From: Acetobacter lovaniensis
GTDB lineage: Bacteria; Pseudomonadota; Alphaproteobacteria; Acetobacterales; Acetobacteraceae
Assembly: GCF_014207635.1 (NCBI RefSeq)
Contig: NZ_JACHIE010000001.1
Location: forward strand, 124,001-188,000
Reading direction: 5' to 3'
DNA length: 64,000 bases
Shown here: positions 8,914 to 16,876 of the stretch, one piece after another
Layout of the letters: each line of letters opens with the position of its first letter
Position numbering within the stretch: position 1 is the first letter of the stretch
The notes under the pieces: model-generated
Databases searched by the model: none
Seen by the model: only the letters and a program-made list of their open reading frames with translations
What the model was told of the DNA's origin: nothing
Translations under genes and position numbers: made by a program

Positions 8914-9713
8914 GCCTTTTTCTCCTGCAATCTTGCAAGCCATTCCGGTGCGGACCTGAGCAGAACCGCACTCATGGCCATGAGCGCCAGCAGAGCAGCC
9001 ATGGTAAAGGCCGCGACTGACTGATAGCCGTTATAAAGATTTTCAATATGCAACGGCATGGTTTCCGTCTCACCCGGTATATGGCCGGACACGACCGATA
9101 CCGCCCCGAATTCCCCCAGAGCACGGGCAGTTGTCAGCAACACGCCGGAAAGCAGAGCCCCGCGTACACCCGGCAGGGTGACATGCCACAGAACCTGCCA
9201 GAACCCGGCTCCCGCCAGAACGGCAGCTTCCTCCGCATCACGCCCCTGCACCTCCATAACCGGCATGACCGTGCGCACGACATAAGGCAGCGTCACAAAC
9301 AATGTGGCCAGAATAATACCCGGTACGGCAAAAGCGATATGGATATTCCACCGCTCCAGCAGCGGTCCAAACCATCCCTGGGCACCAAACAGCAGCAGCC
9401 AGACAAGCCCCGAAACAACGGGAGAAATGCTCAGCGGCAGTTCCACCAGAATTTGCAGGAACTGCCGTCCCGGAAAGCGGAACTTGACCAGTACCCACGC
9501 CGCCAGAATACCAAAGAGGGTATTGAGTATAACAGCCACAACACTCACGCGCAGTGTCAGCCAGATAGCAGCCTGTGCATCGGGGTCCGACAACGTGGCC
9601 AGAGATGCCCCAACGCCATCCTTGAGCGCTTCGGTCAGCACCAGTGCCGGGGGGGTCACAAGCACGACAAGAATAAAAAGCCAGCTTGCCGCCCATACCA
9701 CATAACGGGTCAT
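8910..9713 (-). CDS. cysW: Sulfate ABC transporter permease CysW
   Basis: A 267-residue inner-membrane permease with about six hydrophobic segments and the binding-protein-dependent transport motif EEAAVLAGAGFWQVLWHVTLP near residues 160-178, which contacts CysA. The C-terminal region ARALGEFGAVSVVSGHIPG is typical of CysW. It overlaps cysT by 4 nt (ATGA) and cysA by 4 nt (GTGA). It pairs with CysT to form the sulfate channel. Confidence 0.93.
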   Translation of the reverse strand: MTRYVVWAASWLFILVVLVTPPALVLTEALKDGVGASLATLSDPDAQAAIWLTLRVSVVAVILNTLFGILAAWVLVKFRFPGRQFLQILVELPLSISPVVSGLVWLLLFGAQGWFGPLLERWNIHIAFAVPGIILATLFVTLPYVVRTVMPVMEVQGRDAEEAAVLAGAGFWQVLWHVTLPGVRGALLSGVLLTTARALGEFGAVSVVSGHIPGETETMPLHIENLYNGYQSVAAFTMAALLALMAMSAVLLRSAPEWLARLQEKKA

Positions 9714-13444: not shown

Positions 13445-14143
13445 TTATCCTGCGACGTGAATCCCACATTCGGTTTTGTTCAGGCCAGACCAGCGGCCTG
13501 ACCGGGCATCTTCATGCCCATCCACCGGACGTGTGCACGGCGCACACCCAATGGATAAATATCCCTCGGCCACCAGCGGATGTGGCGGCAAGGCGCGGCG
13601 CTGCATTTCTGCGGCAATATCCTGCGCACTCCAGAAGGCCAGCGGATTGATGCGGATCTGGCCATCGCCACGCTCTTCCACAATCTCCATTGCCGCGCGT
13701 GTGGCGGCCTGCCCACGCTTGCGGCCTGTTACCAGCACGTCGTACGGCAAGGAGGCAACATTCAGCGGCTCCACCTTGCGCAGTTTGCAGCAGGCGTCGG
13801 GGTCGAAGGCCCAGAGTTCTCCCGTTGGGTCACGATCGCTGACCTGTTCGGGGGACGGGCCAATATCCTCAACATTACTCAACCCCAACACATCGGCCAG
13901 CTCGCGCCGGTATGCGAGTGTCTGGGGGAAGTGCTTGCCCGTGTTAAGGAACAGCACCTTCATGTCGCGTTCAGCCTCCGCTACAAAGGCGAGCAGCAGG
14001 GCGGATTCCGCGCCAAAGGACGACATAACCGCCAGCCGGTCACCCAGCAGAGCATGGGCCGTGCGCAGCAGACGAACGGGGTCATCCTGCACGGCACGCA
14101 ACTGCTCGATAACACCTGTATTGTCAGAAGACAAAATATCCAC
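13445..14143 (-). CDS. cysH: Assimilatory (phospho)adenylylsulfate reductase, [4Fe-4S] type
   Basis: A 232-residue reductase of APS or PAPS to sulfite. It has the four cluster cysteines of the iron-sulfur class: Cys118-Cys119 (DACCKLRK) and Cys200/Cys203 (GCAPC). The catalytic Cys226 sits in KTECGIH. An SSFGAES nucleotide-binding loop is at 41-47. Within the family, cluster-containing enzymes usually use APS and cluster-less ones PAPS, so this is probably an APS reductase. It is the first gene of the minus-strand sulfate set, with an AT-rich upstream region. Confidence 0.92.
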   Translation of the reverse strand: MDILSSDNTGVIEQLRAVQDDPVRLLRTAHALLGDRLAVMSSFGAESALLLAFVAEAERDMKVLFLNTGKHFPQTLAYRRELADVLGLSNVEDIGPSPEQVSDRDPTGELWAFDPDACCKLRKVEPLNVASLPYDVLVTGRKRGQAATRAAMEIVEERGDGQIRINPLAFWSAQDIAAEMQRRALPPHPLVAEGYLSIGCAPCTRPVDGHEDARSGRWSGLNKTECGIHVAG

Positions 14144-14235: not shown

Positions 14236-14980
14236 ATCATGCACCACATTGCACTATTTTATTTTGTGTAATTAGCGCCCCAAGCCTGCTCCAGGACGCC
14301 AGTCGGCCAACACACCATCAAGCCGCGACTGCGGCTTAATTCACCAGCAAGGGCGAGGGCATTGTCTGGGCGCTTGATCTGGCCAAATCTCGGCCAGAAC
14401 GCCGCCGATAACCACTGAAATACCTCTCAATCCATCGGAACGATCACTTATCAGGGCAGAGTTAAGCTAAAAGACGGGATACTCGACGCCAAATTCCGGG
14501 TTTCCAGGTCCATCTGATACACATACATGAACACCGCAACCGATCCGCAGTATCCCATTTGCGCACCCATTTTTGTTGGCATAATATATCTTATGCGATG
14601 TTTGGCTGCGCGCACAAAATTGGACAATCCCATTTTGCAGGGCGAAAATATCCTTCCTGCCATAGCCTCACTCCGCATCATCCTGCACCGGAAAGTCATC
14701 ACAGGCATAAGCTGCTGGAATTGCGAGGTTGCGATTGCTCAAAATGGAACAAAAAGACCTGATTCACAGCCCCCTCCCGCATTGATGCCCCTCATCCCCT
14801 CATTAGGGCTGATTTTTTCGTCACAGTTTATCTTGGGAAGCAGATTCAAATACGTGCAGGAGTGCCCATCCCATGGGATTGCTCCGCATCTTCCTGTCCT
14901 GAGTTTCCAATGTGGTCAGACTTTCAATATCCCTTGGCCACACCAGCCTCAAACACCTGCAAAACAGGAAAATACCAGAC
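14236..14980. other. Stretch of about 745 bases without a recognisable gene
   Basis: The region between the cysH promoter and the RNase A-like gene. Open frames exist on both strands (about 155 codons at 14527-14994 plus strand; 85 codons at 14451-14708 minus strand), but their products show no family motif, no convincing ribosome site, and unusual composition. Codon usage does not resemble the flanking genes. It may be decayed mobile or accessory DNA, or may hide an unrecognised small gene such as an immunity gene. No terminal inverted repeats were found by eye. Confidence 0.4.
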
Positions 14981-15763
14981 TTAATAAAGCCTAAACGTGT
15001 GGATATAATAGACCAGTCCGTTCAATACTTCATTGACGATAACAATTTGTATGGATCGTGCGCGCCTGCGCTCCCGGTCTGTGGCACGGATAATAAACGC
15101 CCCTTCTTCCGAGACGCGCCCTTCGACCTCCAGCTTGGCTCCCTTTCTCGCAGTCTTGAGCCAATTATCAATTTTATGGCCGTTTTCGTGGAGCACCCGG
15201 CCAATCACATCCTCCGCCTCTTTCGCCGATGCGAAGCATGAGACAGCCGGTCGTTTTTCCACGGTAAAGCGATATGCGATGCGTTCATCCGTCAGAGCAA
15301 CATGGTTGGACAGCACATAACCACCCGCCCCCAAGTGGTTGAGCGGTTCCAGATCAATTTCTTTTCCCGCTTCCACTTCAGGATCATTCTGAAAACTAAA
15401 CAGGACCGCACACCAGAATGCCCACAGGTTGGGCAAATCACCCCAGTCAGGCGGGTCTGTAACCTTAGCTGTCGGGTCTATACCCAGCACAACCGAACTG
15501 ACCCGTTGCAAGTCCTCTTTGCTGTATGCCAGCAATGTCTTTAATTCGTGAACCGTCTGAACTTTAAACGTCAGATCCCGCGTGTACGGTTCATCGTGAA
15601 TAACATCGTACAGCGTTTCACCAAAAGTATCGGCATCTTCACCAAATGCGCTCGCACCAAGGTTTTTCAGGCGCGGGAACATATCAAGAATGTCGTCATC
15701 GGTGTGATGCGATAAGACTATTGTGGTGCATGGCCTTAACCAAGGCTCAAGTTCTATATCCAT
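14981..15763 (-). CDS. Protein with C-terminal bacterial RNase A-like (CdiA-CT type) toxin domain
   Basis: 260 residues from the ATG at 15761-15763, 5 nt downstream of the dehydratase stop; a longer in-frame start would overlap that gene by 79 nt. Residues from about 144 to 260 resemble the RNase A-like domain of contact-dependent inhibition toxins: GAGGYVLSNHV with His154, Arg165 eleven residues later, an alpha-helical FASAKEAEDVIGRVLHEN block, KLEVEGRV, and the terminal YYIHTFRLY with Thr256. The His/Arg spacing matches what I recall for the Yersinia kristensenii toxin (His175, Arg186, Thr276, Tyr278). The final Tyr position here is Arg258. Residues 1-143 match nothing I know. It has no signal peptide, no secretion domain and lower GC than its neighbours, so transfer is likely. 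RNase activity is inferred, not shown. Confidence 0.6.
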   Translation of the reverse strand: MDIELEPWLRPCTTIVLSHHTDDDILDMFPRLKNLGASAFGEDADTFGETLYDVIHDEPYTRDLTFKVQTVHELKTLLAYSKEDLQRVSSVVLGIDPTAKVTDPPDWGDLPNLWAFWCAVLFSFQNDPEVEAGKEIDLEPLNHLGAGGYVLSNHVALTDERIAYRFTVEKRPAVSCFASAKEAEDVIGRVLHENGHKIDNWLKTARKGAKLEVEGRVSEEGAFIIRATDRERRRARSIQIVIVNEVLNGLVYYIHTFRLY

Positions 15764-15768
15764 GTCTC

Positions 15769-16728
15769 TTAACCTACAAGCTGCGCAAATCTGGTTATAT
15801 CGATGTTTCCGCCCGACAAAAGCACACCCACACGCCGCCCCTGCCATTGCGGGGCAGCAGCAAGGGCCGCTGCCGGAGCAAGGCAGCCAGTGGGTTCCAC
15901 TATAATTTTCATCCGCTCTGCCAGCAGACGCATGGTGGCGGCCAAAGCGGCATCATCTACCGTCACAATGTCGCGGACATACCGCTGCATGAGTGCAAAT
16001 GTTATGTCACCCACGCTTGTTGTCTGCGCGCCATCCGCAATTGTACGCGGTGCGGCAATTTTTACGATATGCCCCGCAGCCATGGATTGCCGGGCATCAT
16101 CCCCCGCTGCAGGCTCCACCCCTATTACCGCACAATCGGGTGCCACCTCATGCGTGACAAGCGCGCAGCCCGAGACCAGACCGCCGCCGCCAACAGGCAC
16201 GAACAAGGCGTCCAGCGGCCCTGTTTCCTCCATAAGTTCCAGTGCTGCCGTGCCCTGCCCGGCAATAATGTCCGGGTGATTGAAAGATGGCAGCAGTGTT
16301 CCACCCCGCTCGGCCACAAGGCGTGCCGCAATTTCTTCCCGGTCCTGGGAATAGCGGTCATAGGTCACAACCTCCGCCCCGTAGCCCCGTGTTGCGGCCA
16401 GTTTTACGGCGGGGGCATCTTCGGGCATGACAATGACCGCAGGCACTCCGGCCTCACGCGCGGCACAGGCTATGGCCTGAGCATGGTTGCCTGACGAAAA
16501 CGCAATAATGCCTTTCTGGCGCACATCCTCGGGTAGAGCCAAAATCGCGTTTGTGGCCCCCCGAAACTTGAAGGCCCCAACCCGCTGGAAATTCTCAGCC
16601 TTGAAGAACAGTTCAACACCGCTCAGCGCATTCAGGTAGCGTGACCTCAGAACAGGTGTGCGATGAGCCTGCCCTTTTATCCGGGCCGAAGCCGCAACCA
16701 CGTCACTGAAAGTCGGCAGCACTGTCAT
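15769..16728 (-). CDS. Threonine/serine dehydratase-like PLP enzyme (IlvA/serine racemase fold type II)
   Basis: 319 residues from the ATG at 16726-16728, preceded by GGAAAATTGAAG. An in-frame ATG at 16764 would add 12 residues but lacks a ribosome site. The PLP lysine is Lys54 in GAFKFRGA. The phosphate-binding loop is VGGGGLVSG (about residues 181-189) and the SGGNID segment lies near the C-terminus. The short length without ACT domains points to a catabolic dehydratase, serine racemase or threo-3-hydroxyaspartate ammonia-lyase rather than biosynthetic IlvA. The substrate cannot be assigned. Confidence 0.85.
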   Translation of the reverse strand: MTVLPTFSDVVAASARIKGQAHRTPVLRSRYLNALSGVELFFKAENFQRVGAFKFRGATNAILALPEDVRQKGIIAFSSGNHAQAIACAAREAGVPAVIVMPEDAPAVKLAATRGYGAEVVTYDRYSQDREEIAARLVAERGGTLLPSFNHPDIIAGQGTAALELMEETGPLDALFVPVGGGGLVSGCALVTHEVAPDCAVIGVEPAAGDDARQSMAAGHIVKIAAPRTIADGAQTTSVGDITFALMQRYVRDIVTVDDAALAATMRLLAERMKIIVEPTGCLAPAAALAAAPQWQGRRVGVLLSGGNIDITRFAQLVG

Positions 16729-16876
16729 CTTCAATTTTCCGGTTTCATCCACCGCAATATGCATACGGAGGGCAGTTGGAGACGGCGTTTACTTAGCACA
16801 GATACGTCCCCACCGTTATGCCCCAAAGCAGGGGCTGGCTACAGTTTCCACGCAAAAAAACCTCCGCCTACAGTCG

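Follow-up and report, generated by a model that had tools for sequence, protein, structure and literature searches.

A chain of a CdiI-type immunity protein and an RNase A-like toxin in Acetobacter lovaniensis and related vinegar bacteria: a possible toxin with a built-in off switch

Introduction

As a rule, a toxin of interbacterial competition and its immunity protein come from two different genes, an arrangement that lets the toxin be delivered without its inhibitor. In Yersinia kristensenii, the active site of the RNase A-like CdiA-CT toxin is formed by His175, Arg186, Thr276 and Tyr278, and the cognate immunity protein CdiI inactivates the toxin through direct contact with His175, Thr276 and Tyr278, as given in excerpts of a review (PMC9086364); orphan toxin/immunity arrays are well known. 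An antidote gene upstream of its toxin gene is described, for other protein families, in excerpts of a report on the toxin/antidote modules of Rickettsia (PMC9111745).

A preliminary description, made from the sequence of a 64,000-nt stretch of the A. lovaniensis genome (the whole stretch analysed, hereafter the window), had proposed a gene at 14981-15763, encoding 260 residues, for a stand-alone RNase A-like toxin domain. An open frame of that length was found there on the minus strand; its product, however, is a single chain in which a CdiI-type immunity protein stands in front of an RNase A-like toxin of the CdiA-CT type, and the arrangement is kept in related vinegar bacteria, which suggests a toxin carrying its own off switch. 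With a single gene, the fusion allows a simple test of whether the weapons used in competition between bacteria are turned into fused toxin-antitoxins that act inside the cell.

Results

The gene, its domains and its nearest neighbours are as follows.

14981..15763, minus strand: fused immunity-toxin gene, 260 aa (P0001); open frame, with like architecture in genomes G009, G013, G048, G343, G1091, G1092 and G1093
15347..15763, minus strand: N-terminal immunity domain of the CdiI type, spanning residues 1-139; CdiI_2 matches 29-103, and the model matches by fold
15317..15364, minus strand: inter-domain linker, residues 134-149; low model confidence (pLDDT <50 at 134-149)
14984..15325, minus strand: C-terminal RNase A-like toxin domain, residues 147-260; RNAse_A_bac and 5e3e_B matches, with His154, Arg165 and Thr256
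15769..16764, minus strand: threo-3-hydroxy-L-aspartate ammonia-lyase gene, upstream neighbour; NF005454 over cut-off
13445..14143, minus strand: cysH, phosphoadenylyl-sulfate reductase, downstream neighbour and edge of the insertion site; NF002537 over cut-off
14575..14597, minus strand: putative dif-like site between the fusion and cysH; sequence matches

The start codon of the fusion is the ATG at 15763-15761, with the stop of the upstream gene 5 nt away; an alternative in-frame ATG lies upstream at 15847 and would give a protein of 288 aa. Predicted promoters and terminators did not exceed the level of shuffled sequence, and an Rfam scan returned two tRNAs and nothing else. An artefact of assembly was ruled out, because A. 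fabarum LMG 24244 and G013 carry the fusion at the identical place; the A. fabarum protein is 99% identical to that of the window.

The Pfam family RNAse_A_bac matched residues 149-256 with an E-value of 1e-13 and a score of 52.5 bits against a cut-off of 27, which bears out the RNase A-like domain that had been proposed for the C-terminal part. Comparison of the structure model with the Y. kristensenii CdiA-CT agreed with this: the whole-protein model matched the toxin chain 5e3e_B (Foldseek E 3e-7, TMt 0.83), and the toxin half aligned with the toxin chain of 5E3E at Z 9.5 over 113 residues with an rmsd of 2.3, residues 147-260 lying on residues 168-280. By offset in this fold alignment, His175, Arg186 and Thr276 of the Y. 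kristensenii toxin correspond to His154, Arg165 and Thr256, the three residues that the preliminary description had singled out; all three are at the positions given there and are invariant in 8/8 fused and 16/16 separate near-full-length relatives, in an alignment in which the two halves of the G027 copy (see below) were entered as separate proteins. Tyr278 corresponds by offset to Arg258, where a Tyr is thus absent. This position holds Arg or Lys in every one of the 24 aligned proteins (8/8 fused and 16/16 separate), and the replacement is therefore a trait of this branch and not decay of the fusion. From the sequence, the toxin half is presumably an active RNase, and the replacement of Tyr278 by Arg258 may make its activity differ from that of the Y. 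kristensenii toxin.

Residues 1-139 are a CdiI-type immunity domain of the RNase A-like toxin family. The Pfam family CdiI_2 matched residues 29-103 at E 0.0017, with scores of 19.5 and 20.4 bits that lie under the cut-off of 26.7; among 50 relatives of the domain, 28 matched CdiI_2 at E 0.01 or better (best 8.7e-7), and no other family was matched at E 0.01. When modelled alone from 50 sequences, the domain was all-helical (pLDDT 78.3) and aligned with the CdiI chain 5e3e_A at Z 10.8 over 95 of 99 residues with an rmsd of 2.2 A, the next chain scoring 4.8; in helical folds a Z below about 13 can reflect a common arrangement, and this applies to the value of 10.8. Foldseek placed the CdiI chain of 5E3E at rank 1 for the same model (prob 0.92, E 1.0), and a search of PDB sequences with the immunity profile gave no credible match. 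Homologues of the domain are encoded beside RNase A-like toxin genes elsewhere, and the two halves of the fusion match both partners of one solved complex, 5E3E. The CdiI identity was accepted on three grounds: the distance between Z 10.8 and the 4.8 of the next chain, the CdiI_2 matches that recur among the relatives, and the fact that the domain is paired with the toxin.

The toxin domain is thus not a stand-alone one: the weak CdiI_2 match, the fold match and the separate immunity genes beside toxins all identify what lies in front of it. Pfam and NCBIfam found no secretion, repeat or pre-toxin domain in the 260-aa protein, as the preliminary description had it; its main premise, a protein with nothing else in it, is wrong, since the immunity protein that goes with this toxin makes up the N-terminal half. 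Its suggestions of a plain orphan toxin cassette and of a house-keeping RNase were dropped once an immunity protein of the same toxin family had been identified in that half, fused in front of the toxin; its remaining suggestion, an undescribed toxin system, came nearest of the three, although none of them named an immunity-toxin fusion. The model of the whole chain had a pTM of 0.76, a value above expectation for two domains without a fixed relation, which suggests a defined packing of the domains in the predicted structure.

Among 49 genomes from the genus of the window, four (G000, G009, G013 and G048) carry a full-length fusion without internal stops, and 15 have some match to the domains. 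A second genus of the Acetobacteraceae carried the fusion in 4 of 26 genomes (G343, G1091, G1092 and G1093); a further genome of that genus, G1095, has a gene of 170 aa at the same place, in which the toxin core is deleted in frame and the immunity half kept. No fusion was found among 19 genomes of a third genus, seven of which have matches, and full-length fusions occurred in G000 and G343 only in a family-wide sample of 397 genomes. Outside the Acetobacteraceae, searches of 385 class, 200 order and 398 phylum genomes with the fused alignment gave toxin-domain matches only and no fused match; these samples overlap and include members of the Acetobacteraceae. Phage records gave no match at E 1e-5 and viral contigs no match, and the two plasmid records that matched, both of Komagataeibacter saccharivorans, have separate genes. 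The distribution of the fusion is patchy. In G048, G343, G1091 and G1093, the fusion is the sole match to either domain genome-wide at E 0.001.

G027 has a copy (L044 4619-5778, contig C135) in the fused order, immunity then toxin, with a G013-like linker; it lies at another genomic place, and its halves are in different frames, which share 49 nt. It may be a two-gene form, a fusion in decay or an error of sequencing; it was left out of the fusion counts, and the trees treat its halves as separate. An apparent partial fusion in G025, where the immunity match and the toxin match each had an open frame of 295 codons, was likewise not counted, as its start-to-stop ORFs are separate.

In G000, G009 and G013, the fusion lies between the threo-3-hydroxy-aspartate ammonia-lyase gene and cysH, and in G015 and G022 the lyase gene is followed by cysH without a fusion between them. 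The G+C content of the fusion gene is 0.50 compared to 0.585 for the window. Because the site is empty in G015 and G022, and given this difference in G+C, the fusion is taken as an insertion at the cysH locus. Between the window and G013, the lyase, cysH, CysD-type, CysN-type and LysR proteins are 81-98% identical, and the fusion proteins about 50%. The fusion of the second genus occupies another conserved locus, near a mechanosensitive-channel gene and adjoining a beta-propeller gene, where its G+C in G343 is near that of the surroundings (0.582 compared to 0.608), and that of G048 lies at a third genomic place. The layout of CDI loci, a CdiA tip beside cdiB, was not found here: the protein has 260 aa, and the scanned neighbours are sulfate-assimilation, lyase and LysR regulator genes. 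There were no defence genes among the neighbours examined, and PADLOC gave no credible match for four proteins; a Cas8b match (E 0.0088), in which no stretch passed on its own, was taken as chance. In G013, but not in G000 or G009, a further gene stands between the ammonia-lyase gene and the fusion (L038 6939-7622); its product of 227 aa is hydrophobic at the N-terminus and was not credibly matched by any family.

The putative dif-like site at 14575-14597 resembles XerC/XerD sites. When up to 3 mismatches are allowed, 46 of the 49 genomes in the genus have at least one match to it (matches expected by chance in the window, 0.00). It lies near cysH in many genomes of the genus, and the fusion adjoins it. 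No skew switch was seen in the 64,000-nt window; the site of G013 is about 0.2 Mb from a sampled skew switch.

The two domains also occur in separate genes. The genome that holds the fusion encodes, on contig C12, a 321-aa toxin (L007 9457-10422) followed by an overlapping gene for a 127-aa immunity protein (9102-9485) that matches residues 18-139 of the fusion; compared with the fusion, this intact pair shows 53% identity in the immunity protein and 44% in the toxin. Upstream of this pair are two more immunity copies and a decayed toxin copy; in total, the array at L007 9102-12102 comprises one intact toxin, three immunity genes and one decayed toxin copy. Since baseplate, tail-fibre and terminase proteins surround the array, the locus is considered a prophage. 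The fused profile also spans an immunity-then-toxin-segment pair on C12 with three stops inside, which is what a precursor of the fusion would look like. A scan for both domains covered 42 loci in 30 genomes: toxin-then-immunity neighbours within 300 nt numbered 31, in 25 of the 42 loci, most with an overlap of 26-32 nt, and immunity-then-toxin neighbours numbered 6, G027 included. Intact separate toxins have about 320 aa, with some 200 extra N-terminal residues that the fusion does not have. Decayed toxin copies are frequent in the arrays of the scanned loci, and additional immunity genes are present in several fusion-related genomes.

Two proteins (G029 L050 5474-6436 and G027 L146 1706-2620) carry tandem CdiI-type domains, the first of them partial, and are thus polyimmunity proteins. 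Four loci (L065, L068, L095 and L097) encode small proteins (157-204 aa) in which an RNase A-like domain follows a stretch that by eye resembles a signal peptide or membrane anchor; these are candidate exported RNase A-like enzymes.

Selection was assessed on three independent pairs of fused genes with no branch in common. In the immunity half, the nonsynonymous/synonymous ratio was 0.167 (p 1e-13); in the toxin half, it was 0.355 (p 9e-5). Both ratios are below neutrality, in line with purifying selection; the toxin half has been kept as a protein since fusion, less strictly than the immunity half. Trees were built from 53 immunity domains and from 24 toxin domains, and in them the fusions of G048 and of the second genus stand apart from those of the cysH locus. 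A single fused clade was rejected for the immunity domain (p-AU 0.025), no longer so with the G027 copy added (0.055), and was not rejected for the toxin domain (p-AU 0.168, or 0.159 with G027). Grouping G000, G009 and G013 as one clade was not rejected for either domain (p-AU 0.27 for immunity and 0.086 for toxin; 0.36 and 0.17, respectively, with G027 added). Either one fusion event or several would fit these tests. The trees include domain copies that cover at least 85% of the model, the alignments those that cover at least 90%; alignment A3 holds 66 of 69 rows, the omitted ones being the shortened G1095 protein and two separate immunity copies, and alignment A4 holds 7 of 9 fused and 43 of 44 separate immunity rows.

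Discussion

With both partners in one chain and a short, uncertain linker between them, the simplest state of the protein is a closed, self-inhibited RNase. The gene product is probably a single-chain RNase of this kind, similar to a fused toxin-antitoxin and derived from an interbacterial toxin/immunity pair. The CdiI-type, all-helical inhibitor would most likely fold back on the RNase active site (His154, Arg165 and Thr256), and a protein made in this self-inhibited form would not need a separate immunity gene. There is no second domain match in G048, G343, G1091 and G1093, and hence no other member of the family to restrain the toxin there; if the toxin is active in these genomes, the fused inhibitor is the likeliest restraint. 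By analogy with fused toxin-antitoxins such as CapRel, the protein would most likely act inside the cell, where displacement or cleavage of the inhibitor would release the RNase. As to its origin, an immunity gene and the displaced downstream toxin segment of an orphan array probably became one frame. A kept fusion with the inhibitor in front cannot leave that inhibitor behind, and therefore points to a different use of the same parts. Counting against a self-inhibited RNase are the limits of the helical fold match and of the CdiI_2 score, the Arg in place of Tyr278, the weaker constraint on the toxin half, the loss of the toxin core in G1095, the two frames of G027, the patchy presence of the gene and neighbours that, as far as examined, are not defence genes.

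Some of these observations would fit a protein that is in effect an immunity protein, with the toxin domain as passenger or stabiliser and with protection against the RNase A-like toxins of neighbours or prophages as the selected role. The immunity half is the more constrained one (0.167 against 0.355), G1095 retains it with the toxin core gone in frame, and extra immunity genes in several genomes and two proteins with tandem immunity domains would agree with such a role; however, the immunity domain would be taken up by the attached toxin, whose active site is intact, and purifying selection also acts on the toxin half (p 9e-5), the His, Arg and Thr of which are kept in 8/8 fusions, so that we regard protection as the selected role as unlikely. 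The patchy presence (4/49 and 4/26 genomes, plus one shortened gene), the arrays with decayed toxin copies that are common in the scanned loci and the fused order in two frames in G027 could also mark the gene as a short-lived by-product of rearranging arrays, fused in frame by accident, without a selected role and heading for loss. This has a still smaller chance of being correct, since G000, G009 and G013, whose fusion proteins have diverged by about 50%, share an open frame in synteny, one locus is common to four species of the second genus, and selection acts on both halves. Delivery to other cells, with the immunity half as escort, is what would be expected from a toxin family that excerpts of the literature describe as normally delivered (PMC9086364), but neither Pfam nor NCBIfam detected a secretion, repeat or pre-toxin domain and the roughly 200 N-terminal residues of intact separate toxins are absent; we consider a delivered effector highly improbable.

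The self-inhibited RNase thus remains the preferred reading. A bolder form of it, which we put forward tentatively and think rather doubtful, is that a toxin/immunity pair was turned, perhaps repeatedly, into a self-inhibited cytoplasmic RNase that serves as the cell's own fused toxin-antitoxin, for example in defence against phages; the immunity domain would then be both sensor and safety catch.

A search of the literature by title and the start of the abstract found no description of a fusion of the CdiI/RNase A type. There is precedent for one-chain proteins in SUKH immunity domains, which according to excerpts of PMC3482391 are occasionally fused to toxins such as Tox-GHH and also form polyimmunity proteins; the immunity and toxin families of those fusions differ from CdiI and RNase A, and the present combination appears, as far as the excerpted sources go, to be new. 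The closest match in structure is the CdiA-CT/CdiI complex of Y. kristensenii (5E3E), both chains of which are matched (Z 9.5 for the toxin and 10.8 for the immunity protein) with His, Arg and Thr kept; there, however, the proteins are encoded by two genes, whereas here there is one chain with the immunity part first, no CdiA carrier and Arg in place of Tyr278. The RNase A-like/CdiI_2 pairs of the Acetobacteraceae, such as that of the C12 prophage (L007 9102-10422), have homologous domains but consist of two overlapping genes, toxin first, with a toxin of about 320 aa that includes an N-terminal carrier part. CapRel SJ46, as described in excerpts of PMC9712102, differs in that its domains are unrelated to those found here, the toxin comes first, the phage trigger is known and autoinhibition has been shown, whereas autoinhibition of the present protein is proposed; what CapRel SJ46 and other fused toxin-antitoxins share with the fusion, here by homology and fold, is a toxin and its inhibitor in one chain (PMC9712102).
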